Made by a program: the position numbers and the translations under genes. The notes beneath the pieces are model-generated. The model saw only the letters and a list, made by a program, of their open reading frames with translations, made no database searches and was not told the origin of the DNA. A DNA stretch of 32,584 nucleotides, from positions 1-32,584 of the IMG/VR virus record IMGVR_UViG_3300034198_014809; one strand, 5' to 3'. Source of the stretch: a virus. Below are positions 495 to 31,900 of the stretch, in pieces (within the stretch, counting starts at the first letter, position 1; every line of letters begins with the position of its first letter).

Positions 495-512
495 TATATA
501 TATATATATATA
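495..512. repeat. (TA)9 dinucleotide tract
   Basis: Nine uninterrupted TA units lie in the 55-nt gap before the first glycosyltransferase. The gap is almost pure A/T and holds no ORF. It may act as an easily melted promoter or spacer region, but no good -35/-10 pair or late box is visible. Confidence 0.8.
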
Positions 513-535
513 CAAGTAAATGTTACAAAGGTTAT

Positions 536-5751: not shown

Positions 5752-5752
5752 T

Positions 5753-6316: not shown

Positions 6317-6923
6317 ACTGACCGATGCATCTATATATGATAACTTTTCGCCGCTACCGCCGGATTGTCGGGGTTGGAATGGAAATCATAGTATTTTCGA
6401 TATATTGGTACGAGAGATAAAACCAAAAGTTGTAATTGAAGTCGGGTCGTGGAAAGGCCAATCTTCCATAACTATGGGAAAATCTCTAAAAAAAGTGTGT
6501 GATAATCCCAAGCTGTATTGCGTTGACACGTGGCTGGGCGCTCTTGAGTTTTGGACACACGGCTGTTCGGAAGAAAGAAATATGATGTGCCGAAACGGAT
6601 ACCCACAAGTTTATTATCAATTTTTATCAAACGTTGTTCATAACAATCTCCAAGATATAATCTTCCCAATACCAGCAACATCTTCGACGGGGGCGAAGAT
6701 TTTAAAAAACAATACTATAAAAGCGGATTTGATTTATATTGATGCTTCTCATGAGTATGAAGATGTGCTCAATGATATAAAAATATACTCGCATCTAATT
6801 AATCCTCGTGGTGTTATGTTTGGAGATGATTATGGCGCATGGCAAGGTGTCAGACGGGCAGTTGATGAATGTTTTTCGGACATAACCGTGGTCGATAACA
6901 TTTTTTGGGTCAAACGTTTTTAA
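6306..6923 (+). CDS. class I SAM-dependent methyltransferase (second Methyltransf_24-like)
   Basis: 205 residues. Motif I is VIEVGSWKGQSS (43-54), then CVDTW, and near residue 140 DLIYIDASHEYEDV with RGVMFGDDY and GVRRAVDE after it. The same IDxSHxYE signature occurs in the methyltransferase at 1819-2376, so the two are related but diverged enzymes, perhaps methylating different positions of one glycan. An 11-nt overlap with the DUF3431-like gene and a 1-nt gap to the mutase gene place it firmly in the operon. Confidence 0.8.
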   Translation: MNGKLTDASIYDNFSPLPPDCRGWNGNHSIFDILVREIKPKVVIEVGSWKGQSSITMGKSLKKVCDNPKLYCVDTWLGALEFWTHGCSEERNMMCRNGYPQVYYQFLSNVVHNNLQDIIFPIPATSSTGAKILKNNTIKADLIYIDASHEYEDVLNDIKIYSHLINPRGVMFGDDYGAWQGVRRAVDECFSDITVVDNIFWVKRF

Positions 6924-6924
6924 A

Positions 6925-8010
6925 ATGTACGATTATTTAATAGTTGGCGCAGGATTTTTTGGCAGCATATGTGCATATGAACTAAACAAGATTGGGAAAA
7001 AGATTCTTGTTATAGATTCTCGTGATCATATTGGAGGCAATTGTTATACAGAAAACAGAGACAACATAAATCTTCATGTATATGGTCCGCACATTTTTCA
7101 TACATCAAATGAAGAAGTGTGGAAGTGGATAAATCAGTTTGCTACATTCAACAACTTTGTATACACCCCCGTCGCAAACTATAAAGAAAAATTATATGCT
7201 CTTCCATTCAACATGTGGACGTTTTATCAAATGTGGGGAGCAACTTCGGAAATGGAAGTAAAAGAAATTATCAAAAAACAATCATCTGTTATAAAAGGCG
7301 AACCAAAGAATCTCGAAGAGCAAGCAATCAAACTTGTTGGGTCGGACGTATACAATACACTTATTAAAGGCTACACAGAAAAGCAATGGAGAAAACCAGC
7401 AACAGAACTGCCCAAAGAGATTATAAAAAGACTACCCGTTCGTTATACATTTGATAATAATTATTTCAATGACAAGTATCAAGGTATACCCGTTGGCGGA
7501 TATACAAAAATATTTGAAAAGTTGCTGGAAGGCATTGAAGTAAGATTAAACACGGATTATTTTACAACGGAACTACCAGAACACACCAAAGTTATTTATA
7601 CTGGTCCCATTGACAAATATTTTAGTTATAAGCACGGCAAACTTGAATATAAAACCGTTAAACTTGATCATATGAAAATAAACACTTCAAACTATCAAGG
7701 CGTTGCTGTTATAAATCACACAGATAAAGATGTGCCTCACACTCGTACCATAGAACACAAACACTTTGAGAAATCAGACAGCCCAGTTTCTTGGGTTAGT
7801 TGGGAAACTCCGGTTGAATATATTCCAGAAAAAACTGAACCATATTATCCAGTGAATGATACGGTCAATACTGAAATATATAACAAGTATAAAGCGGATG
7901 CTTTACTTGAAGATAAAGTTATTTTTGGTGGAAGACTTGGTGAATATAAATATTATGATATTGACAAAGTGATACAAAGTGCATTGAATTGCGTTGAAGA
8001 ATTAAAATAA
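6925..8010 (+). CDS. glf: UDP-galactopyranose mutase
   Basis: 361 residues, the usual length. This flavoenzyme interconverts UDP-galactopyranose and UDP-galactofuranose in the cytoplasm. The N-terminus YDYLIVGAGFFGS is the FAD-binding GxGxxG, followed by HIGGNCYTE, YGPHIFHTS and a C-terminal GGRLGEYKYYDID that caps the flavin site, all hallmark segments. It starts 2 nt after the methyltransferase stop. Its presence implies that at least one transferase of the block uses UDP-Galf, giving the phage galactofuranose-containing glycan chemistry independent of the host. It is the most certain assignment in the block. Confidence 0.95.
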   Translation: MYDYLIVGAGFFGSICAYELNKIGKKILVIDSRDHIGGNCYTENRDNINLHVYGPHIFHTSNEEVWKWINQFATFNNFVYTPVANYKEKLYALPFNMWTFYQMWGATSEMEVKEIIKKQSSVIKGEPKNLEEQAIKLVGSDVYNTLIKGYTEKQWRKPATELPKEIIKRLPVRYTFDNNYFNDKYQGIPVGGYTKIFEKLLEGIEVRLNTDYFTTELPEHTKVIYTGPIDKYFSYKHGKLEYKTVKLDHMKINTSNYQGVAVINHTDKDVPHTRTIEHKHFEKSDSPVSWVSWETPVEYIPEKTEPYYPVNDTVNTEIYNKYKADALLEDKVIFGGRLGEYKYYDIDKVIQSALNCVEELK

Positions 8011-9318: not shown

Positions 9319-9765
9319 ATGTCACTAACTAAATACACACGGGATGAGTTTCTCACCCCTTTTGATAAACTGTTTGATGAAGTTTTCAATAACTTCGGAG
9401 TAACACCATATATAGGTTCATACGCAAAAACCAGTTTTCCCAAAGTGGATGTGGTTGAATATATAGATAAACTTGTGCTAGAAGCAGATGTTGCTGGTCT
9501 AACCAAAGAAGATGTAAGTGTTGAACTGGAAGGTGACACTCTTACTATTCGTGGCGGCAAGAAGCCAGCATCAACTGAAACAGATAGCAAGGCTCGTTAT
9601 GTTTATAGAGAAATAAAGCGTTCAAGTTTTGTTCGTTCTTTTGCTATTGGCGAAGGTATTGATAAAAGTAAAATAAAAGTTGATTATCAAAATGGAGCAA
9701 TCAAAATTGTGTTGCCTAGAGTCAAAGTTGAAGAACAAAAGCCACAAAAGGTCAGGTTGCTATGA
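9319..9765 (+). CDS. small heat shock protein Hsp20 (alpha-crystallin domain)
   Basis: 148 residues. An N-terminal arm (about 1-40) is followed by the alpha-crystallin domain (about 41-135): FPKVDVVEYIDKLVLEADVAG, then the L-x-G-D-T-L-T-I-R-G strand, YREIKRSSFVRSFAIGEGID and the GAIKIVLPR segment that ends the domain. The C-terminal tail carries VRLL, in the place of the I-x-I/V anchor. These are ATP-independent holdases that keep unfolding proteins soluble. T4-like phages of cyanobacteria and other aquatic hosts often carry Hsp20, perhaps to aid virion assembly. It has its own late-type promoter, and its stop overlaps the next ORF by ATGA. Confidence 0.95.
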   Translation: MSLTKYTRDEFLTPFDKLFDEVFNNFGVTPYIGSYAKTSFPKVDVVEYIDKLVLEADVAGLTKEDVSVELEGDTLTIRGGKKPASTETDSKARYVYREIKRSSFVRSFAIGEGIDKSKIKVDYQNGAIKIVLPRVKVEEQKPQKVRLL

Positions 9766-9950
9766 GTGATTACAAGACGCCAATAACTGGCGGGTTCTCC
9801 ATAAGCGACGAAGACATGAAGAAAGTGATGGAATTGGTACGAAAATGGGCACCTGTTATGGACTCAACGGCTTCCAATTCTCCATGCAACATTCTGCTTG
9901 AGTCTGAAGAAAAATACTTCGTTTCAGAGGATAAAAAAGTTGACAATTGA
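9762..9950 (+). CDS. small hypothetical protein coupled to hsp20 (62 aa)
   Basis: 62 residues starting at the ATGA overlap with hsp20, so probably translated by coupling. A helical segment (SDEDMKKVMELVRKWAPVMD) is followed by a polar tail. No family is recognised and no signal or membrane segment is seen. The stop codon (9948-9950) lies within the first arm of an inverted repeat, so its last codons are part of a potential RNA structure. Confidence 0.65.
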   Translation: MSDYKTPITGGFSISDEDMKKVMELVRKWAPVMDSTASNSPCNILLESEEKYFVSEDKKVDN

Positions 9951-10050
9951 TAAACCTTCATACAGTATATCAATTGTAAAGGTTATATAGGCGTCTCTCC
10001 TATTATATGAGACTGGTGGAGGGTGATGTTGAGTTCAACCACCCCTGTAA
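9940..10050 (+). ncRNA. structured non-coding stretch with nested and overlapping hairpins
   Basis: No ORF fits here. Visible elements are: ACAATTGAT/ATCAATTGT (9943-9951/9969-9977, 9 bp); AACCTT/AAGGTT (9953-9958/9979-9984), which interleaves with the first and so is either an alternative fold or a pseudoknot; GTCTC/GAGAC (9993-9997/10009-10013); and GGGTG-AT-GTTG-AGTT-CAAC-CACCC (10021-10044). A terminator hairpin follows at once. A TTGACA at 9940-9945 could be the -35 of an internal promoter, though the -10 (TACAGT at 9961-9966, 15-bp spacing) is poor. It may be a small RNA or a long 3' UTR of the hsp20 transcript; no known RNA family is recognised. Confidence 0.4.
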
Positions 10051-10051
10051 A

Positions 10052-10083
10052 CAGCCCCCAAGAAATTGGGGGTTGCTTTATTT
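10052..10083 (+). terminator. Rho-independent terminator
   Basis: CAGCCCCCA (10052-10060) pairs with TGGGGGTTG (10067-10075) through nine positions with one G-U, around a 6-nt loop, followed by the T-rich CTTTATTT. It closes the hsp20 transcript or the structured RNA before the nucleotidyltransferase gene. It is the only convincing intrinsic terminator in the window. Confidence 0.75.
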
Positions 10084-10102
10084 ATAGGGCATGATATTTA
10101 TA
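10079..10102 (+). promoter_or_regulatory. double TATTTATA box before nucleotidyltransferase gene
   Basis: TATTTATA occurs at 10079-10086 and again at 10095-10102, the second ending 4 nt before the ATG at 10107. The first overlaps the terminator tail. The same 8-mer, the reverse complement of the T4 late box, precedes many genes downstream (see findings). Confidence 0.4.
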
Positions 10103-10106
10103 TAAC

Positions 10107-11387
10107 ATGAAGTTGAAGACCCTAATACTTGAAATTGAGAAAGAAACTGCCGCTTTGGAGTTTCTGAGCAACCTTGTCAAAAAAGGACCATTCAAAAATA
10201 AAGTATTTTTGGCAGGCGGCAGTCCGCGTGACATGCAACTTGGTATGAAACCAAAAGACCTTGATGTGGTTGTAAAAGGTGGTATATCAGCTGGTATTGA
10301 CTTTGCCACATGGGCCGCAAAAGAAATTGGTAATTATAAGGCCGGTAGCAATCCTGTAATATTTCCAACGTATGGCACCGCGAAGTTTACACTGCAAGGT
10401 GTCAACTATATGGGACACGACTTGAGTGATGTGGATGTTGAAGCTGTTGCTCCACGCAAAGAAAAATATACGCTCGGCAGTCGCAAGCCAGAAGTTTCTG
10501 GTGGCGAGCTTGAGGATGATGTACAGCGTCGTGACTTTACGGTAAACAGTTTGCTACACGACTTGACCACGGGTGAAACACTTGACCTTACAGGTATGGG
10601 TAAGGCTGATATAAAGTCTGGCATTGTTCGTACACCGCTTGATCCAGATGTTATTTTCAGCGACGATCCGTTGCGCATTCTGCGTGCTGTTCGGTTTACC
10701 GCAAAATATAATTGGAAGCTGCCGATGTTCATGATTCGTGCCATAAAAAAGAACTCAGCCCAACTCACCAACATTTCCAAAGAGCGTATTCATGATGAAG
10801 TTAATAAAATGCTGCTTACCAACTATCCATTCAAGGCGTTTAGAATGTTGCAAATATTTGGACTGATGCAGTATGTGTTTCCGTCTCTCCAGAAGACAAA
10901 CATAGATTATATGAAGCAAATGAAAGGTCTCAGACCAGACCTCGTGATTCGTCTTGTTGCTGCACTAAATCCAATAACTCCAAACAAAGTGCAATCTGAA
11001 ATGAGTGGATTGAGATACAGCTTGGACATTATCAAATCTGTGACGAATACTTTGAGTGCACTGCCAACTTTCTTACAGAATGCCAACAACCTGTCCGATG
11101 AATATCTGCGTGAGTTGGCTTATACTTCGCCAAACATCGTGACATACTTGTTCAACTATGCCGAAATATATGTTGAAAACTTCAATGTATACGAAGCTGA
11201 GGAACGCTATACAGAAGCACAAGACTCCATAAAGAACAACCCATTGCCAGTTACAGGTAATGACTTGATTGCTATGGGCATGAAACCAAGTCCAGAATTT
11301 AAGAATTTACTTGCCAAGTTCAAGTCAATATATATAAAAAATCCTAAAACACCAAAAGATGATTACTTGAAGTTGGCCGAACGCTGA
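10107..11387 (+). CDS. CCA-adding enzyme / poly(A) polymerase family nucleotidyltransferase
   Basis: 426 residues. Class II nucleotidyltransferase features appear in order: FLAGGSPRD (35-42), the catalytic DLD (51-53), a second-domain strand carrying D-V-D (about 108-110), RRDFTVNSLLHDL (141-153) and DPLRILRAVRFTAK (187-200), then an all-helical C-terminal body. The family adds CCA to tRNA 3' ends or A-tails to RNA; the sequence alone does not separate these. No tRNA genes are in this window, so it may maintain host or phage tRNAs encoded elsewhere. The segment between DLD and RRDFTVN is long (about 87 residues), with a Lys/Gly-rich piece (about 116-133), suggesting an insertion. It stands alone between a terminator and a 66-nt gap. 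Confidence 0.9.
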   Translation: MKLKTLILEIEKETAALEFLSNLVKKGPFKNKVFLAGGSPRDMQLGMKPKDLDVVVKGGISAGIDFATWAAKEIGNYKAGSNPVIFPTYGTAKFTLQGVNYMGHDLSDVDVEAVAPRKEKYTLGSRKPEVSGGELEDDVQRRDFTVNSLLHDLTTGETLDLTGMGKADIKSGIVRTPLDPDVIFSDDPLRILRAVRFTAKYNWKLPMFMIRAIKKNSAQLTNISKERIHDEVNKMLLTNYPFKAFRMLQIFGLMQYVFPSLQKTNIDYMKQMKGLRPDLVIRLVAALNPITPNKVQSEMSGLRYSLDIIKSVTNTLSALPTFLQNANNLSDEYLRELAYTSPNIVTYLFNYAEIYVENFNVYEAEERYTEAQDSIKNNPLPVTGNDLIAMGMKPSPEFKNLLAKFKSIYIKNPKTPKDDYLKLAER

Positions 11388-11431
11388 TCTTTAACTTTAT
11401 AATAAGTCGTCGTAATAGGGCGCAGTACTGA

Positions 11432-11452
11432 TATTTATAGATTTATATAAAT
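11432..11452 (+). promoter_or_regulatory. TATTTATA box and A/T palindrome
   Basis: TATTTATA (11432-11439) is followed by the perfect palindrome ATTTATATAAAT (11441-11452), which ends just before the ATG at 11454. Likely promoter or operator of the membrane coiled-coil gene; the element is shared with other gaps in the window. Confidence 0.4.
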
Positions 11453-11453
11453 C

Positions 11454-12947
11454 ATGAGATTTTTAGCCTATTTGGTATTACTGAGTGCGATTGTTATATC
11501 CGCGTGCGGTGCTTATTTTAGTATCGTTGGATTAAAGTTATTGTTTGTTGGTGGCGGCGCGTCTATTGTTGTGATGGGAACGGCGCTTGAAGTTGGCAAG
11601 CTTATTACTGCTACTTTTTTAAAACAAAAATGGAATGACATAAGTTTGTGGATGAAAACATACATGGTCATAGCCACATTTTTTCTTATGCTCATAACCT
11701 CGATAGGTATTTATGGATATCTAAGTGCCGGTTACACAGCTACATCTATTACCGTGCAAGGGTATGAACACCAAATAGAGTCAAATATATCCAATATAAA
11801 AGATATTGAGAAAGAAATAGCATCACTGAAGACATCAACTTATAATGAAGCAGAAATAAGGTCTATTGAGGACAACAGAAAGAAGGTGATTGAACAGCGT
11901 ACTTTGCTTATAAACCAAAAGAATCAGCAAGCAGAAACTATAAGAAAGTCAACGGACACAAACAAAGATGCTTCGTCTGATATTATATCAGCAAAACAAG
12001 CATTGGAACTATCCAAGTCATCTACCGACTCTGATATTGGTCGTGAACTTGAGCAAATAAAGTTGTATAACTCGCGGCTTGAGATATTAGATAAAGAAGT
12101 ACAAAAATGGATAGACCAAGGCAGTGGAAACTTGTTCAAAAAAGGTGGATTGGACAAAGCAAGAGAAATCAAAGAGTCGCAACAGAAAGAACGCGATGAC
12201 ATTGATGCTCAAATAAAATCTTCACAAGACAGAATGGAAAAACTGCGTCAACAATATGCTGGTCAAGTAAAAGAATATAATGATCGTGTAGCGGCGATTG
12301 AATCTCGCAGCAAATATCAAAGAAGTGAAATAGATGCGAATATAAAAAATGTTGAAAAAGAAGGTGCGGACATTGCAGCATCTATAACAGCATACAACAA
12401 AGAAACGGATGAAAAGATTGCCGCATTAAATACCAAAAGAAGTGAAATGACTGATCAAAGCAAGCAGAAGATAATTGAATATCAAAATAATATACAAACA
12501 TTGCGAGCACAAAACACAGAAACGCAAGAAAAAATTGTTCATACAGATGTTGGTACATTCAAGTTCATTGCCAAAAGCCTAGACATTCCATTGGACAAAG
12601 CAGTGAATTATTTTATTTGGGCCATCATTGGAGTGTTTGATCCGTTGGCAATATGTTTAATTTTGGCGTTCAATACACTGATCAAAAAGGATGAAAAGAA
12701 AGAACAGCCAATGATTGTAATAGAACCGCCGCCAACCACAACCGGTCCAATTCCGACGCCCAATGCAACATCCACTCCAACAACAGATACAATCACAGAA
12801 AATATTTTGGTTAAAGCACCTGTTGCAGTTGATGTTGTATCACCGGAATCAATTGTCGCAGACGAGACATTCAGAGCATTGCCACCACAAGCACCCATTG
12901 CTCCACATGGCATATCAAGTGGTAAAGTTAAAATGCATAAAGAATAA
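11454..12947 (+). CDS. membrane protein with long coiled coil
   Basis: 497 residues. Three hydrophobic segments (about 4-24, 28-54, 68-93) are followed by about 270 residues of charged, heptad-rich coiled coil (about 101-370; many Lys/Glu/Gln with Ile/Leu spacing). A fourth hydrophobic segment (about 383-410, including YFIWAIIGVFDPLAICLILAF) and a Pro/Thr-rich tail (PPPTTTGPIPTPNATSTPTT) complete it. The layout of three TM, coiled coil, one TM resembles DUF4407-type proteins, but I cannot confirm that. It should sit in the host inner membrane with the coil on one side. Candidate roles are superinfection exclusion, membrane remodelling or a lysis-linked function; none is shown by sequence. Confidence 0.75.
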   Translation: MRFLAYLVLLSAIVISACGAYFSIVGLKLLFVGGGASIVVMGTALEVGKLITATFLKQKWNDISLWMKTYMVIATFFLMLITSIGIYGYLSAGYTATSITVQGYEHQIESNISNIKDIEKEIASLKTSTYNEAEIRSIEDNRKKVIEQRTLLINQKNQQAETIRKSTDTNKDASSDIISAKQALELSKSSTDSDIGRELEQIKLYNSRLEILDKEVQKWIDQGSGNLFKKGGLDKAREIKESQQKERDDIDAQIKSSQDRMEKLRQQYAGQVKEYNDRVAAIESRSKYQRSEIDANIKNVEKEGADIAASITAYNKETDEKIAALNTKRSEMTDQSKQKIIEYQNNIQTLRAQNTETQEKIVHTDVGTFKFIAKSLDIPLDKAVNYFIWAIIGVFDPLAICLILAFNTLIKKDEKKEQPMIVIEPPPTTTGPIPTPNATSTPTTDTITENILVKAPVAVDVVSPESIVADETFRALPPQAPIAPHGISSGKVKMHKE

Positions 12948-12960
12948 TTCTTTACATTTT

Positions 12961-13003
12961 TATTTATTATACATTGACAATATAAATATTTAGCATATAT
13001 ATG
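12961..13003 (+). promoter_or_regulatory. candidate promoters before peptide deformylase gene
   Basis: The 86-nt gap contains TATTTATT (12961-12968), a sigma70-like TTGACA (12974-12979) with TATATA 16 nt later (12996-13001), and between them a perfect T4 late box TATAAATA (12981-12988). The gene could thus be read early by host sigma70 and late by the phage sigma factor. Confidence 0.5.
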
Positions 13004-13033
13004 TGAATTGTATATACGACCATTCACAAAAAT

Positions 13034-13648
13034 ATGAGTTACAAAATTGTCAAAAACAAAGATTTTCTACACAAGAAAACTGAGCCAGTAGCAACAATAG
13101 AAGAAGGCGAAGCAATCGCCAAGAAACTGATCGAGGCTTTGGATGAACTTTCACATGGCATCGGTCTTTCTGCTATACAAATTGGAATACCCAAGGCGGT
13201 ATCAATTGTACGAGTTCGTAAAGATAATCCACCAATTGTTCTCATGAATCCCACTATTGTAGAAGCAAGCAAAGAAAAACTTATCTTCACCGAAGGATGT
13301 CTGAGTTTGCCCGGAAAACTCGCAAGCACGGTACGTTCACTGAAGGTGACCGTATCAACTCTCAATCACGCCAATCCGCTTTCATTTGGTCCAGATACAG
13401 ACCCAGTCACCCAAGAATCTGCTGGCAAGGATTACGGCTTGTTGGAAAGCATTTGCATTCAACACGAAACTGACCACACCAATGGAGTTTTGATGATTGA
13501 CGACGGCGTTCGCTTTTCACCCAGAGTAGAGAAAAAAGTTAAATATGGCAGAAATGATAAAGTTATGGTGGGAAAAGATGGAGAAACTCAATATATAAAA
13601 TACAAGAAAGCCTTGGAACTCGTGGAGCAAGGCTGGAATATTCTATAA
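13034..13648 (+). CDS. def: peptide deformylase
   Basis: 204 residues. It removes the N-formyl group from nascent proteins in the cytoplasm. All three metal-site motifs are present: GIGLSAIQIG (42-51, motif 1 with Ser for the usual Ala), EGCLSLP (87-93, Cys89 ligand) and QHETDH (143-148, His144/His148 ligands with Glu145 catalytic). The stretch between motifs 2 and 3 is about 13 residues longer than in E. coli Def (FGPDTDPVTQESAGKDYG region). A C-terminal extension of about 50 residues (SPRVEKKVKYGRND onward) follows the core. Phage deformylases in aquatic phages are usually shorter. Likely speeds maturation of phage or host proteins during infection. Confidence 0.93.
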   Translation: MSYKIVKNKDFLHKKTEPVATIEEGEAIAKKLIEALDELSHGIGLSAIQIGIPKAVSIVRVRKDNPPIVLMNPTIVEASKEKLIFTEGCLSLPGKLASTVRSLKVTVSTLNHANPLSFGPDTDPVTQESAGKDYGLLESICIQHETDHTNGVLMIDDGVRFSPRVEKKVKYGRNDKVMVGKDGETQYIKYKKALELVEQGWNIL

Positions 13649-18184: not shown

Positions 18185-18589
18185 ATGGCAATAGCAACAC
18201 AGACTTATGGTATAGTTCTTCCCATCACGCATGGGCCACAGGGTTATTTTAACCAAAGTTACAGTGCCATCGAGCAAGTAAGGTCAAACTTACACTTGTT
18301 GCTAAAAACAAAAAAGGGAGAACGCCGAATGAATCCAGATTTTGGTTCTGGGCTGTGGAATGTATTGTTTGAGAACATGGCAGATGATATGACTCCGATC
18401 ATTGATAGCACGATTCGCAGAGACATTGCCAAATGGATGAGTTATGTGAATGTGCAGTCCGTATCAGTGGTAAACAACAAGGATAATAATTATAATCGTT
18501 TGGATGTTTCGGTTGTATTTACCGTTCCTTCAATTGGAGTTTTTGACCAACAAACCTTGCAAGTGGGCATGAACACAAATAATATATGA
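18185..18589 (+). CDS. 25: baseplate wedge subunit gp25-like (GPW/gp25 family)
   Basis: 134 residues, matching the size of T4 gp25 (132). The GPW_gp25 features are clear: an N-terminal arm, EQVRSNLHLLLKTKKGERRMNPDFGSGLWNVLFE (the conserved 'ERxxxPDFG' core) and TIRRDIAKWMSYVNVQSVSV. gp25 forms the core of the wedge around the hub and is conserved across phage tails and type VI secretion (TssE). The stop overlaps the gp6 start by ATGA. Confidence 0.9.
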   Translation: MAIATQTYGIVLPITHGPQGYFNQSYSAIEQVRSNLHLLLKTKKGERRMNPDFGSGLWNVLFENMADDMTPIIDSTIRRDIAKWMSYVNVQSVSVVNNKDNNYNRLDVSVVFTVPSIGVFDQQTLQVGMNTNNI

Positions 18590-20541
18590 TTTTAGACACA
18601 CCAAAATCCTTTCAACCGGGAAAAAGAGATGTTAAGTATCTCAGCAAGGACTTCTCGCAATTGAAGCAGTCTTTGATTGATTTTTCTAAAACATACTATC
18701 CAAACACATACAAAGATTTTAGCGATGCATCTCCTGGAATGATGTATATTGAAATGGCTGCTTATGTTGGTGATGTATTATCATACTATATAGACTATCA
18801 GTTCAAAGAATCAATGTTGGTAAATTCAGAAGAACGTCAGAATATTATTGATTCTGCTCGTTCGTTGAGTTACAAGTCAAAACCAACCGCACCAAGCGTC
18901 ACCAGTTTTGATGTATATCAATTGGTGCCATCAAAAATTTCAGAAGACGGTAGCATTGTTCCTGATATGAGTTATGCTCAAATCATAAAACCTGGTATGT
19001 CTGCCACCAGCGATTCCGGTGTTTCATTTTTGACCAGTGTACCAGTTGATTTTACCGTGGATACCAAGAACGATCCGTTGGAAGTTTCTGTGTATCAACG
19101 CAACGCCGCTGGACAGCCAGAATTTTATGTATTAAAAAAGACCGCCGAAGCATTTTCTGGTCAGTTGATAAGCAAAACTGTGAGCATATCAGCGCCATCT
19201 CCATTTTATAAAATATATCTTTCTGAAACAAACGTCATTGAAGTTTTTGATGTATATGATTCTGACGGAAATCGTTGGCATGAAACAGATTATCTCGCAC
19301 AAGATTTGGTACCAATTGAAAGCGAAAATATATACAAAAACGACATGTCACTTTCTGCATACAGAGACACCGTTCCTTTCTTGTTGAAATATTTGAGAAC
19401 ATCCAAACGTTTTGTTACTGGTGTGCAAGCTGACAATACAACATTTTTGGAGTTTGGTTCTGGTACAAATGTTTCCGACGACGAAATTATTATACCAAAT
19501 GTATATACTGTTGGAAAACCAAACACATTCAGAAATGAGAGCATAAACTATGATCCCGCAAACTTTTTGTCGTCTCGGGCATTTGGACAAGCTCCAAGCA
19601 ACACAACATTAACAATTCGCTATATCACCGGAGGTGGTTTGGAGAGCAATGTAAATGCTAATACTATCAAGAATATTACCAACGTAGAATTCTTTGGAGA
19701 TATTACAGAATTGCCGGTGTTTGATCAAGGATTGACCAATTTGGTTAGACGTTCTGTAAAGGTAAATAATCCAGTTCCTGCTTCTGGAGGTCGTGGTTCA
19801 GAAACCAATGATGAAATTCGCAACAATGCATTATCAAGTTTTTCTGCGCAAGGTCGCGCAGTTACTCAAAAAGATTATGTTGTAAGAACATATTCAATGC
19901 CTTCAAAGTTTGGTTCAATTGCCAAAGCATATGCTGTAGCAGATACCAATTTGGATTCTCCAAATATACAGGCATTACCGAATCAACTTTCTACAAGTTC
20001 TCTTGCGCCGCAAAACACTAACACAAAGAATATTGGAAACAACAATCAGTTCGCCATCAACTTATATCTACTCGGCTATGATACAAACCAACGCTTGATT
20101 GTTACCAACGAAGCTATTCGCCAAAATCTCAAGAACTATCTAAATCAATATCGTATGTTAACAGACAGTGTTAATCTACTCGATGGATATATAATAAATA
20201 TTGCAGTAGACTTTACAATTATTGCATACAAGAATTATAATAAGCGTGAAGTGTTGGCAAATTGCTTAACATTGGTTCAACAATTCTTTGATATCAACAA
20301 TATTCAATTCTGTCAGCCGATCAACTTGAGTCGTCTTGAACTGGAAATTGCCAAGATTGATGGTGTACAATCTGTTTCTTTGTTGAAAATTAAGAATTTG
20401 ACATTGCGTGATGGTGATTATTCTCCATACGAATATGACATCAGCAAGGCTACGGTAGACAAGGTGGTATATCCATCCATTGATCCGTCAATATTTGAAG
20501 TAAGATTTCCTACAAAAGACATTGTTGGCAGAGTGGCATAA
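18586..20541 (+). CDS. 6: baseplate wedge subunit gp6-like
   Basis: 651 residues, close to T4 gp6 (660). The N-terminus (RDVKYLSKDFSQLKQSLIDF, TYYPNTYKDFSDASPGMMYIEMAAYVGDVLSYYID) is the hallmark gp6/gpJ-like wedge start. RGSETNDEIRNNALSSFSAQGRAVTQKDYVVRTYSMP in the centre is the conserved gpJ-type segment. gp6 dimers link neighbouring wedges into a ring around the hub, with gp25 as partner. The C-terminal 180 residues are alpha/beta with VQSVSLLKIKNL. Confidence 0.9.
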   Translation: MILDTPKSFQPGKRDVKYLSKDFSQLKQSLIDFSKTYYPNTYKDFSDASPGMMYIEMAAYVGDVLSYYIDYQFKESMLVNSEERQNIIDSARSLSYKSKPTAPSVTSFDVYQLVPSKISEDGSIVPDMSYAQIIKPGMSATSDSGVSFLTSVPVDFTVDTKNDPLEVSVYQRNAAGQPEFYVLKKTAEAFSGQLISKTVSISAPSPFYKIYLSETNVIEVFDVYDSDGNRWHETDYLAQDLVPIESENIYKNDMSLSAYRDTVPFLLKYLRTSKRFVTGVQADNTTFLEFGSGTNVSDDEIIIPNVYTVGKPNTFRNESINYDPANFLSSRAFGQAPSNTTLTIRYITGGGLESNVNANTIKNITNVEFFGDITELPVFDQGLTNLVRRSVKVNNPVPASGGRGSETNDEIRNNALSSFSAQGRAVTQKDYVVRTYSMPSKFGSIAKAYAVADTNLDSPNIQALPNQLSTSSLAPQNTNTKNIGNNNQFAINLYLLGYDTNQRLIVTNEAIRQNLKNYLNQYRMLTDSVNLLDGYIINIAVDFTIIAYKNYNKREVLANCLTLVQQFFDINNIQFCQPINLSRLELEIAKIDGVQSVSLLKIKNLTLRDGDYSPYEYDISKATVDKVVYPSIDPSIFEVRFPTKDIVGRVA

Positions 20542-21944: not shown

Positions 21945-22162
21945 ACGCAAACCCAAATCTAACAGGATACAATCAAGATGACGTACAGAAGCTATATCAA
22001 AGCGGATACATCGCCCCAAATATAGATTCGTATGGTAATTTGATTATTCAAAATGTTGGTGGTCAGTTGTATTCATCATCAATAATGATTCCTCTACAGA
22101 ATGTGGTGTATGACCCAATCAAAGTAGAAACAAAATATGATGTTACATTCAAAGAACTATGA
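21941..22162 (+). CDS. small baseplate-block protein (73 aa)
   Basis: 73 residues with ATGA overlaps on both sides, so it is translated with its large neighbours. It begins MNANPNLTGYNQDDVQKLYQ and has a beta-rich second half (NLIIQNVGGQLYSSSIMIPL). No family is recognised. A small subunit bridging the DNRLRE-like and gp7-like proteins is plausible, but only from position. Confidence 0.65.
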   Translation: MNANPNLTGYNQDDVQKLYQSGYIAPNIDSYGNLIIQNVGGQLYSSSIMIPLQNVVYDPIKVETKYDVTFKEL

Positions 22163-25100
22163 AACTTACAGATATAAAATATAGAACCCAATCCACATCT
22201 TCTTTGAATGTTGGCTCTACTTTTTCCGAAAAAGATTTGAAGTTTTATACCGAGAATCAAACTTATGTTAATTTTCCGTTTGGTGAATCTGATAAGGATA
22301 TAATAAATATTTCGGTATTCAATTTTGATGAGTCTCAAGTGACTGCATCCGTGGTTGTGTCGTCTGGATCATATACACAAAATACTCAGTCATATTATGA
22401 TGTAACCAACAAATATGTTACTTATTCATACGAAAATTTTAATAGCACGTTTCCTCTTATAGCATCAACACCGGATTCAACAAATACATCGGGGTCCGTT
22501 TCAACAAGTTCTCTTTTCTTGGATGTATCCAAGGAGTTGAACAAGGTGGGAATACTCGATGGAAATTACAAGATTTCTATAGAATTGTTGAGAAATTTGG
22601 TTGGAACAGAATATGGTTCAGATGAAAAGTTGATAATAGACACAATCTCCACATCAAGAACCGAAATAGCAATAATTCCAAAGACACTAAAGGGAATACA
22701 ATCCAACACCGTTGATGAATTTAATATATTTTCAAATTATCAATTTCAGATAAAAGAAATTGCAAATACTCTTACAGATTCTATTTCGTCTCCTCCTATA
22801 TATAATTTGTATTATGCTGCCAAAGATAGATATAAAAATGCGGCTGACAGTTTTAAGTATAATTACGGACTAAATACCAGAGAATCTGAATCTGGCAATG
22901 ACATTGATGCTATAAATCTTCTCACCGACATGTTCTATGGTGTCAAGAAAGGAAATATACGCAATAGCGGCGAAATCTCAACCAATGACATTCTGGGGAT
23001 ATATGATCAATTCAAAAACTGGCTATATCAGAATTATGAATCCGGTGCCAATTTTCAGGATGTCCGAGACTATTATTATAGCATATTCAGATTTGTAGTT
23101 GATCAAGAACTCAACAGAATAACCAACAGGAAGCCAGATGATTATAACTCCATACTAGAATTTCTTGGATATATCTATTATAATCTCATTTTCTATCCAG
23201 AGATTTATGTTATAGAGGTAAAGCACAACATATATTTGTCCGGATATTTCAAAAATTATGTAAATTTCGGTAGAGATAAAAAATATTCTATCCTCAACAA
23301 GAAGGTGTTTCCATCCGCCGATCCAAGATTTTACGATAAGTTGATATTAAAATTGAGCGATCCTCTGCCAGCTTCAATATCAATTGGAGATGATCTCTGG
23401 ATCACAAACAATTTTGGATTTCTCCCGATAGTTCAGAATTTATATTATTTCACAAAACCAAATATACAAACGATTCCTCTGAAGGGTCCGAATTTTTTGG
23501 TCAGGATTGAAAGTCAAGGCAATGCTACAGAAGCGTTATCAATGGAGCAATTGATAAATCAAACTGGCAGTGCATATAACGAAATAGTTTCAAAGATAAG
23601 TGTTCCATTTGACACCATTGTTGATAATACAAATTACAGAAATTTTAAAAACTTTGTAAATTTCTCATCAGCAACTTTAAGAATTTCTGCATTTGATACC
23701 AAAAAGTCGCAAATTGAAAAATTTCAAGGCGACATAGAATATTTTACAAACAAACTTGATAGCAATCCAGATGACCAGTTTTATATAAAAGAGCGCACAG
23801 ACGCAAATACAGAAATAGACAACATTGAAACTTCAATGGATGGATATGAAAAATTCTTGTATAAAAATCCGGCATGGTATACGGAACATATTGGTTCTTC
23901 ATCGTTGTATGATCGCAACAATGGAAATTCTTTGATTAACAATCTTCCACAATTCATGGTGGAAGAATCCGATTCCAATGTTGATTATATCAAGTTTGTT
24001 GGCATGATTGGTCACTTCTTTGATAATCTGTCATTGACCATCAAACAGATCACAGAGAAAAATAATTATTCCAGCAGTCCAAGTTATGGTATTTCGGTAG
24101 ACATTGTTGAAGACATGTTGGCATCCTTGGGTTGGGAAGCGGAGATTTCCAAGGAGAATCTTCCACTGCTACTTTCATCCTTCTCGAAGAGTGATTTTGA
24201 CACTACCAGCGAGTTATATCAACTGAGCAGAGATTTATCTGAAGAACAACGCAATCAAATCATCTGGAAGCGCATTCTTAACACTCTGCCTTATATCTAC
24301 AAAACCAAAGGCACAGAAGCATCGTTGTCATCACTGTTGAGTTGTTTTGGCATACCAAAGAACATTATAAAAATAAAAGAGTATGGTGGAATTCACAATG
24401 TACATAATCTACAGGACACTTCGGAGTATGTGATTGATGAAGTAAAATATGAACCATATTTCAGCGGAAGTGCAGAATATTTTAAGGTAAACTGGACAGG
24501 AAGTGCGCAAACATTGGAATTCAATTTCGCGTTTGATCCAAATAGCACCAGTGACGAAGGACATGTATTCAGATTGGCAGAATGTCCTGGTAGTTGGTTG
24601 GTTGGAGTATACCGAGACAAGGGATTGGATTGGGGAAAAATGTTTTTCAGTTTGGATAATGGATCTGGCAGTGTCAAGACGGTCATGACCAACAAGGCAC
24701 CGGTGTTTGATGGCAACACCTATCACGCCATGATTCGTCGCAACGACGCATCCCAAGAGTTTTCTGTCTACAATTTCACTCCATCTCAAATTGATCAATA
24801 CCCAATCAAATATGATGTGTATCTGCAACGTGCAGAAGATTCCAGAATCACATTCTTTGCAACGGCAAGTCAATATTTGAGTGGCAGTTATAACACACAA
24901 TTCCGTTCTGGTTCGCACGTGTACATTGGCAATTATAACCAAAACACATCTTCTTTGAATGTTGACCCAGAAGCATTCTTCGGAAACATCGATGAAATTA
25001 AGATTTGGCAATCTCCTGTAAGAGATTCTATCTTCAAAAATCACACACTGCATCAGAATGCATATGATTTGAATTCTCCTGTGAATATGGTTTCTGACAA

Positions 25101-26820
25101 TCTGTTCAGAATATCGTTTGAGCGCCCGTTGGAATTATATACATCTTCAAATTCCATCACATTAAACAATTTGTCGTTCCGAGATGATTTTCCAACGTTT
25201 GATGCAATAAACTTTCCGGAAAATAATATTCCATTGGCAAGAACTACCGAATGTGATCCGGCGTATGGAACTGGATTTCCTTGGCAGTTTACTCGCAAGG
25301 ATACAAGACAGACCGTAAAATTACCAGACTATGGTGCAGGTAAGTTTGGTAGCAATAAAATAAATTATGTTGAACAAGAATTGATATCAAACTTGTCTTC
25401 AACCGAAAGATCGTCCCTGCAATCGAGTAAACTTGTTGGAGTGGGATCTAATAGACTTGGTATATTCTTTTCTCCTTCCGAAATTCAAAACACAGAAATA
25501 ATAAAGTTCTTTGGAAATTATCCTCTGTCTGAACTAATTGGAGATCCATCATATGTGTATGCAAGTTCATACACACGATTTGAAAAATTTAAGCAAATTT
25601 TCTATGATCAAGGATTTGGTGCAATAGACTATCAGTTCTTTATGAACGTGGTACGATTCTATTTTGACAAGGCGATGTTTAAATATATCAAGTCGGTTGT
25701 TCCAGCCAGAGCAAAACTGGTTGATGGTATTTTGATTGAACCATCTATATTGGAGCGTCCAAAGATTCAACTAAAGCCACTTGTACAAGAAAATATTCCT
25801 CAAAAAGAATCGCACATAGAAGTTAATCGCGGAATCGCTGGAACACAGGTTCCGAAATTAGAAGATACTTTGGTTACGAAAAATGAAGGAACGTCAATTT
25901 TAAGTGACGTGAATCAAATATTTTTTCCAACCGACGAAGACCAATACGGATTTGGAGTATATTCGGACAATGGATTAACATACTATAATGGAGAATATTA
26001 CAGAGCCGATGTAATCAAAGTCAAGAAGCAGTATCAAGTATACAACAAATACAATTTACCATCGTCTTCATTCAATGACCATGAGATAAATGTGAATTTG
26101 AACGGAACGGTGCAAACATTGTCGTCTTCTTACTACAAAATCAATATGGCAAAATTGTCAGAATTGACTTCGTACCTCGTGACAATTTCTTATGAAGATG
26201 TATACTACAGCGGAAGCGTGAGCTTTACTCCACCATCAACCGGATCTTCAATATCACATACCATATCATCGGCACATTCATTGAGTGGAATAATATTATC
26301 TGGCTCTTTATGGGGATCAACTGGAAATGGTGTGGTATTATCACCTGGTATCTCTATAACTTCCGATTATGTTTCGGCATATCCTATGATTTATACTGGC
26401 GTTTTTGGGTATTCTGGTGGAACATATCATTTTGTTGGAAGTATATTTGGTGGAGTTCCGTCCACATTAAATCTGACAAAGTATAATACCACATTCTTGT
26501 CATCTGGAACTGGACCTGTGACAGATGATTTCAAGTATAGAACTTTGGGGGCATTTTTCGGTTCATTGGCTTCTGGTATTAATTATAGAAAAACGCTATC
26601 CATGTTATATTATCCAAAAAATGCTGAATTATTGAATGGATATTTCACAAACCACCACAAATACGGCAAACAACAGTTTTCTACCAAAGAGATAAACTCA
26701 TACGACAACACAAATACACGGTTTAAATGGAAGAAAAACAGCCAAAATAAAAAAACCACGGTTGATGTGAATACCGGTCTATTGGATAACAGTGACCCAG
26801 TAGAAACAAAAACAGTCTAA
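22159..26820 (+). CDS. giant baseplate wedge protein, gp7/tail-protein-I-like, with LamG-like domain
   Basis: 1553 residues; T4 gp7 is 1032. The first 500 residues are alpha/beta with many Tyr/Asn/Ser. Residues about 690-740 (RNQIIWKRILNTLPYIYKTKG, ASLSSLLSCFGIP) match the 'tail protein I' type motif in which a helix pair ends in a Gly-Ile-Pro turn. Residues about 778-955 look like a LamG/concanavalin jelly roll (TLEFNFAFDP, YHAMIRRNDASQEFSVY, SHVYIGNYNQ, GNIDEIKIWQSPV), a sugar-binding or structural fold. A beta-rich Ser/Gly region (about 1345-1480) precedes a basic C-terminus. In the gp6-gp7 gene order this is the best wedge gp7 equivalent; I cannot confirm by alignment. Confidence 0.65.
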   Translation: MKLTDIKYRTQSTSSLNVGSTFSEKDLKFYTENQTYVNFPFGESDKDIINISVFNFDESQVTASVVVSSGSYTQNTQSYYDVTNKYVTYSYENFNSTFPLIASTPDSTNTSGSVSTSSLFLDVSKELNKVGILDGNYKISIELLRNLVGTEYGSDEKLIIDTISTSRTEIAIIPKTLKGIQSNTVDEFNIFSNYQFQIKEIANTLTDSISSPPIYNLYYAAKDRYKNAADSFKYNYGLNTRESESGNDIDAINLLTDMFYGVKKGNIRNSGEISTNDILGIYDQFKNWLYQNYESGANFQDVRDYYYSIFRFVVDQELNRITNRKPDDYNSILEFLGYIYYNLIFYPEIYVIEVKHNIYLSGYFKNYVNFGRDKKYSILNKKVFPSADPRFYDKLILKLSDPLPASISIGDDLWITNNFGFLPIVQNLYYFTKPNIQTIPLKGPNFLVRIESQGNATEALSMEQLINQTGSAYNEIVSKISVPFDTIVDNTNYRNFKNFVNFSSATLRISAFDTKKSQIEKFQGDIEYFTNKLDSNPDDQFYIKERTDANTEIDNIETSMDGYEKFLYKNPAWYTEHIGSSSLYDRNNGNSLINNLPQFMVEESDSNVDYIKFVGMIGHFFDNLSLTIKQITEKNNYSSSPSYGISVDIVEDMLASLGWEAEISKENLPLLLSSFSKSDFDTTSELYQLSRDLSEEQRNQIIWKRILNTLPYIYKTKGTEASLSSLLSCFGIPKNIIKIKEYGGIHNVHNLQDTSEYVIDEVKYEPYFSGSAEYFKVNWTGSAQTLEFNFAFDPNSTSDEGHVFRLAECPGSWLVGVYRDKGLDWGKMFFSLDNGSGSVKTVMTNKAPVFDGNTYHAMIRRNDASQEFSVYNFTPSQIDQYPIKYDVYLQRAEDSRITFFATASQYLSGSYNTQFRSGSHVYIGNYNQNTSSLNVDPEAFFGNIDEIKIWQSPVRDSIFKNHTLHQNAYDLNSPVNMVSDNLFRISFERPLELYTSSNSITLNNLSFRDDFPTFDAINFPENNIPLARTTECDPAYGTGFPWQFTRKDTRQTVKLPDYGAGKFGSNKINYVEQELISNLSSTERSSLQSSKLVGVGSNRLGIFFSPSEIQNTEIIKFFGNYPLSELIGDPSYVYASSYTRFEKFKQIFYDQGFGAIDYQFFMNVVRFYFDKAMFKYIKSVVPARAKLVDGILIEPSILERPKIQLKPLVQENIPQKESHIEVNRGIAGTQVPKLEDTLVTKNEGTSILSDVNQIFFPTDEDQYGFGVYSDNGLTYYNGEYYRADVIKVKKQYQVYNKYNLPSSSFNDHEINVNLNGTVQTLSSSYYKINMAKLSELTSYLVTISYEDVYYSGSVSFTPPSTGSSISHTISSAHSLSGIILSGSLWGSTGNGVVLSPGISITSDYVSAYPMIYTGVFGYSGGTYHFVGSIFGGVPSTLNLTKYNTTFLSSGTGPVTDDFKYRTLGAFFGSLASGINYRKTLSMLYYPKNAELLNGYFTNHHKYGKQQFSTKEINSYDNTNTRFKWKKNSQNKKTTVDVNTGLLDNSDPVETKTV

Positions 26821-27524: not shown

Positions 27525-28670
27525 ATGATTTTTAAACAATTTGATCCAACAGATATAGTGGCAGGAAGAACTCAACCGGTTTCTACCGGATTGTGGAGTG
27601 ACGGTGAAGCGGTGTGGGGAAATGGTTCCACGACCGTGGGGTCATCTTTTTACACCAGCAGCCGTCAAACCCAACAATCTTCTTCGTTGTTTGAGCCATT
27701 GAACGGTCTTTACTATACCAATGTATATGATGCTCCAACAGGATCATCAAATTCTGATATTTATTTTTCAATTGCATACGGTCATTATGCCGGTTCTGGT
27801 TCTTCTACTTTTGACACAAATTCTTCACAGGGCAGTTTGTTGTTTCCAACGAAGGCTATCTATAATCAGTATCGTAACTTGCTATTGTCACCCGGTGATG
27901 AAAAGTTTACTTTTATAACTTCTTCGCTTTCTGGGTCGGCAACATATACAGATGCCGACGAAATCTATGCAATTTCATTCAGAAATTCCAAGTATAAGGA
28001 TAGATTGGATCCAGGGCAATTTGAGATGACATTGAGCGGATCTGGTGTGGGTGGTTCTGGAACAAATATCACAATTATTGATGATTACAGGGATAACCCA
28101 GACACAGGAGTTCAAACTGGTGGCAAGAGATATAACTTACTACAAGGAACACTGGCTTCTGGTTCTCTTGCTACAAGAAATTATCAAGGTATTGGGTTGA
28201 TGTATCCAGACCTTGGAATTGTTATTCTCAACGCAAAGAAGGTACATGAATTGATTGGTAAGGTTGATGGCAAGTCGTTGTATTATAACTCAACCGAGTG
28301 GAATGGTGGTTTTGCCAGCATGGGAAATTTGATATTCTCAGCTATTAAAAATGGAACATCTATAAGTGGAATGAAGGCGCGAGTCACTGAATATGTTCCG
28401 GCTCGTCACTTCTTTGTTCGTGTAAAGAATCAAGAATACAACTATAGCAACAATCCTACCTTTGTTATATCCGAGAACGACAATCCAAGTAATTCTCAAG
28501 ACATTGGCAAGCTAAGATTTACCGACTTTTATACCAATCCAAAGGTGTATATTACGACCGTTGGTTTGTACAATGACAACAACGACCTTGTTGCTGTTGC
28601 CAAATTGAGTCAGCCATTGCTCAAAGACTTTACCAACGAATGTTTGGTGAAGATAAAAATTGATGTTTGA
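27525..28670 (+). CDS. baseplate/virion structural protein (381 aa), gp8-like candidate
   Basis: 381 residues. MIFKQFDPTDIVAGRTQPVSTGLWSDG at the start, then the SIAYGHYAGSGS and KAIYNQYRNLLLSPGDEKFTF blocks and EIYAISFRNSKYKDRLDPGQFEMTL. I recognise this pattern from virion structural proteins of cyanophages and related phages. The C-terminus (VRVKNQEYNYSNNPTF ... VYITTVGLYNDNNDLVAVAKLSQPL) is a module also present, but interrupted, in the next protein. T4 gp8 has similar size (334), but identity with gp8 is only a guess. Confidence 0.65.
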   Translation: MIFKQFDPTDIVAGRTQPVSTGLWSDGEAVWGNGSTTVGSSFYTSSRQTQQSSSLFEPLNGLYYTNVYDAPTGSSNSDIYFSIAYGHYAGSGSSTFDTNSSQGSLLFPTKAIYNQYRNLLLSPGDEKFTFITSSLSGSATYTDADEIYAISFRNSKYKDRLDPGQFEMTLSGSGVGGSGTNITIIDDYRDNPDTGVQTGGKRYNLLQGTLASGSLATRNYQGIGLMYPDLGIVILNAKKVHELIGKVDGKSLYYNSTEWNGGFASMGNLIFSAIKNGTSISGMKARVTEYVPARHFFVRVKNQEYNYSNNPTFVISENDNPSNSQDIGKLRFTDFYTNPKVYITTVGLYNDNNDLVAVAKLSQPLLKDFTNECLVKIKIDV

Positions 28671-28711: not shown

Positions 28712-31700
28712 ATGATTAAGCAGTTCACTGCGGGAGACATCACAGTAAGACCATTTAGCACGTTCAAACATTGGACGATTCAAAGCATTGACTCTGCTAG
28801 TGTAGATACATACGGAGTAAGCACTTATTATAATGGTAGAATGGAAGTGAACGAAGGACTGAAAATATCTTCTCCATTTTATCCTTCTGGTAGCATCTAT
28901 TATGTTTCTTCCGATGAGCCAATAAATTCATCTGGTAAATATGCCAGAAACATACACAGCACGACTGATGCTATGTTTTATAAGAATGCCGGCGAACCAA
29001 TCAAGTTGTTTGGAGTTGAAGAATATACACAAGACCCAAAAACTGGAAAAGAAGAAGTGCGAGAAATTCATGATCGTATCATCACTGCCACTTTGAAACA
29101 TAATGTATATGGCGAAAAGGTTATACCAAATACAGTTCAACTTGTGGACGACTCCAACATTCACCAAACTTTGGACATTCATGATGATGGTTATACCAAC
29201 TTGTATGCAACTGGTTCACACTTTCCATCAACTGCTGAAATACAAGCGATAAGAAACACTCATATAGCAATTTCACAATGGGATACTGGTAGTGGGTTGT
29301 TTTATGTAACATTCAGTAATGGTTCTACTCAGTATGTTGATTATGTGAATGCCAAACAATATATGGCAATGGGATTGACGGTAACATATATTCCACCAAG
29401 TCCAAGCGGTTCTGAATGGGTGTTGAACACCGGAAGTCATCAAGATTTGTTCTTTCCAGAAAATGAACACTTTGGAGAATCTGTGAGTTGTTGGTCAAAG
29501 TATGTTGCCGTTGGCTCGTCAATGGATGCTTATAGTTTATCCGATTATCGCATTGGTCATGCTGCATTATTCAAGTATGATGAAACTCGGGGACATCATC
29601 GCCCAATTGCAAAACTACATTTTCCATTTACTCAAAGTTTGACTGATACATCTTCGTATTTCAAAGACTCGTTTGGTACGTCCGTGTGTGTAAGAGACAA
29701 TTTCTTGGCGGTTGGTTCCCCAACGGGTTCAGTTTGTTCTTCCAGTATGTATCCAGGTTTTGTATGTGTGTATGACAGATACAAGGGTGGCGAAGATAAT
29801 TGGGGAATAATAAATATTCTAAAAGGAAAAAGCAACGGAGACAAATTTGGTACTTCGGTTGCCATTGACAATGATGTTTTGGCCGTTGGAGCAACTGGTG
29901 TGAGTGGTAGCAAGGGTGCGGTACATTTGTATAGAAAGAAAAGATATATGGATGCGGAATATCCATGTCAAAATATTGATACTGGTTCGGTATGGATGCA
30001 GGTTGTTACTCAAGAAGATTTTTGCAAGGAACTACAAACAGGTTCATATATTGCTTCACAAAGTTATACTCCAACATTTGTTTCAGGAAACTATTCATGG
30101 GAGTATGAAACTACTATCACTTCAAGCAACCAGTCTGCTGGTGACAATTTCGGTTGGTCTGTATCTTTGGATTCAAACCGATTGATTGTTGGTACAAATA
30201 AAACGGGCAAAGGGTATGCCGTAGCATTTACTTGTTCATACCATTCGGCATCGCTTGGTGCATGTCCAACTGCTTCTTGGGGACAACACCAAATATTCAT
30301 CGCCAATAGCAAAACCGGCGATTTGAACATTGATGCTCCGGAATATTCCGTTGATGTGTCCAGTGTTATAACATCAGATATGTTTGGTTATAGCGTAGAT
30401 GTCAGTGGACAGAATGTAATCATTGGATGCAAAGCGGACAAAGCATATAAACCATATTATGGATATACAGGAAGTGCTATGATTTTGGGTGCTGCATATT
30501 TATACACCTATAGATATGATGAAGCATGTTTGCGTTGGCAATATGATTTGATTACCAAGACATTTGGAAACAGAGACTATTTGACCGATAATAATTTTGG
30601 TCACGCTGTGTCTATCGACGGAAATACCGCAGCAGTCACTTCATTGCCAGACACTCTTGGCAGGACGGTTGGATATTCCGGCAGTTCTTATATATTGGAA
30701 AATTATGCATATAAATCTTCTGCATCACTTGATTCTGTGTTGGGTAGAGCAACATTGTATAATTTTGATTTCACAAATGATGCTTGGTATAGAGCCGGTG
30801 AATTGAGAAGAAACAAAGAAGAAAATCATCCATACAATATATATGGATATTCTGTTTCTATTGCTTCCGATTTTATGTGCGTGGGAGCACCAATCGTAAA
30901 TTTGGCCACGGCATCTGCATATTCCCAAATCATTGATCCAATAAATCAGTCCGGTTCATTTCCATCATCATATTCTGGTTCAGTTTATGTATATGACATG
31001 AACAAATATGAAGCTGATCCAAAGATTGGTAATGTATTTTATAAGAATGGACATTTGGTAATCACCAACACATCATCAATGTATCATGATGTAATGACAG
31101 GAACGGGTTCTCGTGGATTTACTTTGGATTATCAAGGTGCTCATACAATATATGAACATGAATATCTTGTATCAATAAGACCGGGTGAATTTAATTATAG
31201 TACCAATCCAACTTCGTTGCAGCCAAACCCTCTTACATTTGATGTAAATCAAGATGGTGTGTTTGATTATAAAGATGTGGATCTTATCATGAGATACTTG
31301 AAACTCAAGAAGTTTTATGCAGATTATGTGTTGGATGACAACGGTATTGTTTTGGAACAAGACACAAACACTGATTTTAGTTGGTGGGCAAATGATATTC
31401 TTCAAACAGAAGCCGGTGATGTGTTGCAACAAGAAGACGATACAGCATCCAGTGTAAAATATTCATATTTGGCAGCTTTCACCAATACCGCATATCAGTT
31501 TATAACAAATAATTTATATAACACAGGGTTGTTGGATGTTGATGGCGACGGAAAAATCAACATGAATGATGGTTATATATTGGCACTATATGTGTTGAAG
31601 AGATTGAATCCAAGTACTTTGGCACAATATCTAACCATAGATTCAACTCGCAGATATGTCAAAGATATTGAAGATTATCTAAATCCATATTGCGGCAACA

Positions 31701-31900
31701 ATCCATTCAGAGTCAATCCAACATTTCTTGGATATCAATATAGTTCATCATATGACGCCACTGGTTCATTTTTGTCACCATGTGTCACCACAATTGGATT
31801 ATATCAAGACAATCAACTTGTAGCAGTAGGTAAACTTGGTCGTCCGATCAAAAATCTAATTGATTGGCCAGTCAATATTGTCGTCCGTTTTGATACATAA
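28712..31900 (+). CDS. tail/baseplate protein with seven FG-GAP blades (integrin-like propeller) and split dockerin
   Basis: 1062 residues. The N-terminus (MIKQFTAGDITVRP) resembles that of the preceding protein. Seven FG-GAP-type blades start near residues 254, 321, 379, 480, 558, 629 and 711, each with F/Y-G-x-[SA]-V followed by a V-x-[VI]-G or similar strand (e.g. FGTSVAIDNDVLAVGA). Seven is the number in integrin-alpha beta-propellers. After about 785 comes the phage module GNVFYKNGHLVIT ... IRPGEFNYSTNPT, interrupted by two dockerin/EF-hand loops, DVNQDGVFDYKD (844-855) and DVDGDGKINMND (942-953). It resumes at RVNPTFLGYQ (about 1000) and ends VTTIGLYQDNQLVAVGKLGRP. Likely a receptor-contacting or fibre-docking component. 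Confidence 0.7.
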   Translation: MIKQFTAGDITVRPFSTFKHWTIQSIDSASVDTYGVSTYYNGRMEVNEGLKISSPFYPSGSIYYVSSDEPINSSGKYARNIHSTTDAMFYKNAGEPIKLFGVEEYTQDPKTGKEEVREIHDRIITATLKHNVYGEKVIPNTVQLVDDSNIHQTLDIHDDGYTNLYATGSHFPSTAEIQAIRNTHIAISQWDTGSGLFYVTFSNGSTQYVDYVNAKQYMAMGLTVTYIPPSPSGSEWVLNTGSHQDLFFPENEHFGESVSCWSKYVAVGSSMDAYSLSDYRIGHAALFKYDETRGHHRPIAKLHFPFTQSLTDTSSYFKDSFGTSVCVRDNFLAVGSPTGSVCSSSMYPGFVCVYDRYKGGEDNWGIINILKGKSNGDKFGTSVAIDNDVLAVGATGVSGSKGAVHLYRKKRYMDAEYPCQNIDTGSVWMQVVTQEDFCKELQTGSYIASQSYTPTFVSGNYSWEYETTITSSNQSAGDNFGWSVSLDSNRLIVGTNKTGKGYAVAFTCSYHSASLGACPTASWGQHQIFIANSKTGDLNIDAPEYSVDVSSVITSDMFGYSVDVSGQNVIIGCKADKAYKPYYGYTGSAMILGAAYLYTYRYDEACLRWQYDLITKTFGNRDYLTDNNFGHAVSIDGNTAAVTSLPDTLGRTVGYSGSSYILENYAYKSSASLDSVLGRATLYNFDFTNDAWYRAGELRRNKEENHPYNIYGYSVSIASDFMCVGAPIVNLATASAYSQIIDPINQSGSFPSSYSGSVYVYDMNKYEADPKIGNVFYKNGHLVITNTSSMYHDVMTGTGSRGFTLDYQGAHTIYEHEYLVSIRPGEFNYSTNPTSLQPNPLTFDVNQDGVFDYKDVDLIMRYLKLKKFYADYVLDDNGIVLEQDTNTDFSWWANDILQTEAGDVLQQEDDTASSVKYSYLAAFTNTAYQFITNNLYNTGLLDVDGDGKINMNDGYILALYVLKRLNPSTLAQYLTIDSTRRYVKDIEDYLNPYCGNNPFRVNPTFLGYQYSSSYDATGSFLSPCVTTIGLYQDNQLVAVGKLGRPIKNLIDWPVNIVVRFDT

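Follow-up and report, generated by a model that had tools for sequence, protein, structure and literature searches.

Genomic context of the FG-GAP gene

The window, that is, the whole 32,584-nucleotide stretch of IMG/VR record IMGVR_UViG_3300034198_014809, carries a tail-baseplate gene cluster closed by an open reading frame encoding 1062 residues (28712..31900, + strand). The encoded protein combines an FG-GAP propeller with a dockerin-like insert. The boundaries of this reading frame were correctly given in a first-pass annotation of the DNA. Homologues of two T4 baseplate wedge proteins are encoded upstream of it, both on the + strand: a gp25-like protein (18185..18589; Pfam GPW_gp25, E=3.7e-15, and a PHROG match) and a gp6-like protein (18586..20541; PHROG tail matches with E values of 8e-15 and 1e-14), the latter being 37-43% identical to its homologues in Flavobacterium phage immuto and Microcystis phage Mel-JY01. 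The gene order is gp25-gp6-448-1553-213-381-FG-GAP protein, where numbers are protein lengths in residues, and the genes directly upstream keep their order across the FG-GAP contigs examined. The 213- and 381-residue partners also lie ahead of the orthologous gene in Mel-JY01, immuto and LR756508.

No PHROG matched the 1062-residue protein significantly, no known T4 baseplate protein matched it in sequence, and a tblastn search of annotated phages with the whole protein gave no match. Its parts are all encoded on the + strand. The N-terminal module (residues 1-240, 28712..29431) shares residues 1-169 with shorter orthologues described below. The C-terminal module is split in two, with a first half at residues 770-835 (IGNVFYKNG...EFNYSTNP, 31019..31216) and a second half at residues 1013-1062 (TGSFLSPCVTTIGLYQDNQLVAVGKLGRP..., 31748..31897). 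The motif of the second half also ends the neighbouring 381-residue protein (27525..28670, + strand), which lies upstream of the FG-GAP gene or of its orthologue in the related phages examined. The presence of this TTVGLY module in both proteins suggests a common attachment signal.

Neither module has a Pfam match. Both recur in a family of proteins that other T4-like phages encode downstream of their gp25 and gp6 homologues, which in substance bears out the earlier description of the propeller as flanked by baseplate modules. Profiles of the 381-residue neighbour and of the shortest orthologues gave no meaningful match in the PDB. With a model of such a short orthologue, Foldseek returned nothing below an E value of 0.6, and VIA-align ranked the C-terminal part of T4 gp6 first with a weak Z score of 5.7, within the noise range. 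As the N- and C-terminal modules are modelled with low confidence and correspond to no known fold, the argument for baseplate attachment is built on synteny and on the shared module.

The central domain is predicted to be a seven-bladed propeller

The first-pass annotation had proposed seven FG-GAP-type blades in this protein. A scan with [FY]Gx[SA][VI] finds starts at residues 254, 321, 379, 480, 558, 629 and 711, exactly the seven that had been named, and no others. The domain (residues 250-766, 29459..31009) belongs to Pfam family FG-GAP_2 (PF14312), with E=3.2e-31 and 107.7 bits for a gathering cut-off of 23 bits, and five stretches at E<=1. A match to this family is found in 24/24 aligned homologues. 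When an HMM built from six blades was used to find the seventh and scored against shuffled sequences, six of the seven blades outscored all the shuffles reported; for the weak blade 5, two of the 1452 reported shuffles scored as high.

In an AlphaFold2 model computed with the 24 homologues, local confidence is high across residues 250-766 and low in the N-terminal module, the C-terminal module and the middle of the insert. According to DSSP, the model contains seven successive blades of four strands each, except blade 7, which has three. Residues 250-766 are thus predicted to form a closed seven-bladed beta-propeller. In integrins, an N-terminal strand closes blade 7. Whole-ring alignments to seven-bladed chains cover model residues 167-772, and since the structural alignments begin at residues 167-168, a strand near residues 174-178 may close blade 7, and with it the ring, in the phage protein.

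The best PDB matches of the propeller model in Foldseek are nearly all integrin alpha chains (best E=1.8e-11), and with the FG-GAP_2 profile they agree with what had been expected of a structure prediction. In VIA-align, alignments with integrins span about 350-380 residues and reach a Z score of 28.4, while those with WD40 propellers such as CIAO1 and G-beta span about 290-310 residues and reach 27-28. Because WD40 propellers tie with integrins, shape alone says only that the domain is a seven-bladed propeller; its FG-GAP identity is indicated by the sequence family and not by the geometry.

Comparison with integrins

The resemblance to an integrin alpha head put forward in the first-pass annotation therefore stands for the number of blades and for the top structural matches, whereas the Z scores do not separate integrins from WD40 proteins and the calcium sites are missing. 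Integrin alpha chains carry DxDxDGxxD calcium loops in their last blades. This motif has no match in residues 250-766; its sole match in the protein is the dockerin loop at residue 844. A Kyte-Doolittle scan with a 19-residue window reaches a highest mean of 1.4 and reveals no membrane-spanning segment, and Pfam reports no integrin leg domains. The lack of blade calcium sites and of a membrane segment led us to reject a true integrin. Consequently, it is extremely improbable that the gene is an integrin-alpha homologue taken from a eukaryote: the integrin chains heading the structural matches and a weak profile match to integrin alpha-L (E=0.048) speak for such an origin, but both hallmarks are absent and the sequence is of the FG-GAP_2 family, which is present in several other phages.

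FG-GAP proteins in other viruses

FG-GAP_2 proteins were found in Vibrio phage nt-1, in the cyanophages S-TIM5, S-MbCM6 and S-SCSM2R and in Sinorhizobium phage Phosso; searching BFVD extends the list to Agrobacterium phage Atu_ph07 and giant viruses. Like the window protein, S-TIM5 AEZ65754.1 has an FG-GAP_2 propeller in a T4-like phage, and it is annotated as virion structural. However, it has 407 residues, the main Pfam domain detected in it is FG-GAP_2, its gene neighbourhood differs, and the 24% identity covers part of the propeller only. The FG-GAP repeat protein of nt-1 (AGN30308.1, FG-GAP_2 at E=7e-64) has 402 residues, and no adjoining genes are annotated as baseplate. The giant structural protein AFD02696.1 of S-MbCM6, annotated as gp8 baseplate wedge and virion structural, contains both FG-GAP_2 and LamG_3, but with about 7000 residues its architecture is unlike that of the window protein. 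In S-SCSM2R, the FG-GAP_2 gene adjoins tail-fibre genes. Giant size is also seen in Phosso, whose protein (L184, 3985-13803) exceeds 3273 residues and has 13 FG-GAP_2 stretches.

The architecture had been thought to lack a described precedent. This holds for the open papers searched, among which none describing FG-GAP proteins in phages was found and one discusses FG-GAP in a prasinovirus as perhaps the first viral case (PMC11467894). It does not hold for the databases, since FG-GAP_2 occurs in several T4-like or large phages. FG-GAP propellers are thus already in phage databases, and the window protein arranges known parts in a new way.

A dockerin-like insert splits the C-terminal module

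A feature missed by the first-pass annotation lies between the two halves of the C-terminal module (residues 836-1012, 31217..31747). It matches Dockerin_1 (PF00404) with E=1e-6, above the cut-off, and contains two EF-hand-type loops, DVNQDGVFDYKD (residues 844-855, 31241..31276), whose aligned Asp/Asn positions are invariant, and DVDGDGKINMND (residues 942-953, 31535..31570). In the AlphaFold2 model, helices follow the loops at residues 853-868 and 951-961. Dockerin_1 is matched by 22/24 homologues, and no shuffle of the C-terminal part gave two such loops (0/5000). Both loops are of the Ca2+ type and may bind this ion.

In a standard type I dockerin, the two repeats are adjacent and the domain comprises about 60-70 residues. 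Here, the second loop starts 98 residues after the first, so that the insert is a split dockerin and not a standard one. The spacing is 98 residues in nearly all homologues, with 88 in L037 and 99 in the L028 group. The insert stands between EFNYSTNP and TGSxxxPYITTIGLY, two motifs that are near each other in relatives with a LamG domain or no central domain, which lack the insert. More generally, no protein outside the FG-GAP clade was found to combine the propeller with a split dockerin lodged in a baseplate anchor module.

It could be imagined that the split dockerin works as a Ca2+-dependent socket, where a dockerin-cohesin-like contact within the baseplate or with host scaffold proteins would lock or release the integrin-like adhesion head on cell contact. 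We regard this as very improbable. Type I dockerins bind a cohesin, and among the window ORFs scanned, no Pfam match to cohesin was obtained.

Three classes of orthologues at one locus

Searches of IMG/VR recovered relatives with identities of 46-92%, on contigs of up to 297 kb. The search of environmental phages for the same architecture was productive, with 41 complete, intact copies, the window included, having the propeller and dockerin-type loops (a single strict loop in L021). No relatives were found in bacterial and archaeal genomes, and there is hence no evidence for a prophage.

Orthologues sharing the N- and C-terminal modules occur in Mel-JY01, in immuto and in an uncultured 484-kb phage, and they fall into three size classes. 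The minimal class (about 300-375 residues) has no central domain. The second class (about 575-635 residues) has a LamG/ConA-like lectin domain, LamG_3 being detected in 7/7 tested. The third (1048-1126 residues) has the FG-GAP propeller and the dockerin-type loops. Homology of the flanking modules across classes is confirmed by hhalign, with probabilities of 98.4 for the N-terminal module and 99.7 for the first half of the C-terminal module against the minimal class. Mel-JY01 WWT39517.1 and the LamG-type orthologues of IMG/VR thus share locus, flanking modules and preceding genes with the window protein, but a LamG/ConA-like domain replaces the propeller and the dockerin insert is lacking. Likewise, immuto QQO92083.1 (357 residues) has the same locus and modules, with neither central domain nor insert. 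In a tree of the flanking modules, the 15 FG-GAP rows group together with full support, consistent with a single acquisition of the FG-GAP form.

Two proteins of the largest size class, L098 (1140 residues) and L101 (1133 residues), have weak LamG matches and no FG-GAP, and are left out of the count of FG-GAP copies. Two orthologues of minimal type (L125, 1649-3367; L126, 3301-4941) carry a C-terminal extension of about 170-200 residues past the TTVGLY module, for which no Pfam match was found.

Variation and selection

The segments of the C-terminal module are the most conserved (mean identity 76-85%, the highest value being that of its second half), and the blades are less so (56-71%). Most substitutions fall in the blades and their loops, as do insertions of 6-63 residues. 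The longest of these is found in a blade-7 loop of L011 and L017 (residues about 742-804), proteins otherwise about 92% identical to the window protein. In every segment dN/dS is below 0.2, with values of 0 to 0.19 in the blades, which denotes purifying selection; no sign of positive selection was seen in the blades by this measure. In close relatives, dN is raised in blades 4 and 5, where dS is mostly raised too, a pattern that fits recombination more than positive selection.

Possible role in host attachment

Within one slot, related phages have nothing, a lectin-like domain or a propeller, which places the propeller in what appears to be an adhesin slot. This variable slot, in the gene that closes the baseplate cluster, lends indirect support to the receptor-binding or cell-contact role suggested in the first-pass annotation and points to a baseplate protein that would bind a receptor or glycan. 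It can be proposed that the protein is a peripheral adhesin in the baseplate of a T4-like freshwater phage, a reading that we consider probable. The conserved N- and C-terminal modules would fix it to the baseplate; the neighbouring cluster protein has the C-terminal TTIGLY module too. The propeller, held between these anchors, would be displayed outwards on the virion, and its loops would bind a host surface protein or glycan. The insert with its dockerin-like pair of loops, which bulges out of the C-terminal module, could serve as a Ca2+-stabilised hinge or clamp beside the anchor. The contrast between conserved C-terminal segments and variable blades favours this reading, as do the virion structural annotations of FG-GAP_2 proteins in S-TIM5 and S-MbCM6 and the tail-fibre genes next to the one in S-SCSM2R; the purifying selection on the blades, with no sign of positive selection, weighs against it.

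Propellers are also common protein-protein scaffolds. The domain might accordingly hold neighbouring baseplate or fibre proteins without contacting the host, as would suit the tie with WD40 scaffolds in Z score, the strong purifying selection and the restriction to a single clade. Such an internal scaffold seems rather unlikely, however, because relatives at the same locus have no propeller or have a lectin instead, and an exchangeable, outward domain fits better. A little less likely still, the propeller and the LamG domain would be low-specificity glycan tethers to a matrix or biofilm, other fibres choosing the host. The ConA-like nature of the alternative domain agrees with this, as does the possibility that specific receptor binding falls to other large proteins of the cluster; on the other hand, glycan-binding residues are not readable from the sequence. 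A single baseplate locus with conserved anchors and a centre that is empty, lectin-like or propeller-bearing offers a natural experiment on how tailed phages change attachment.

The neighbouring 1553- and 381-residue proteins may nonetheless be the main receptor binders. The former (22159-26817) has a weak LamG match at residues 823-949 and is possibly another adhesin. Elsewhere in the window, this T4-like phage contig encodes proteins for glycan modification (440-8007), namely a GlcNAc glycosyltransferase, two Methyltransf_24 proteins, HtrL_YibB with a glycosyltransferase 25, and a UDP-galactopyranose mutase. These are followed at 9319-13645 by phage-borne Hsp20, CCA tRNA nucleotidyltransferase and peptide deformylase genes.
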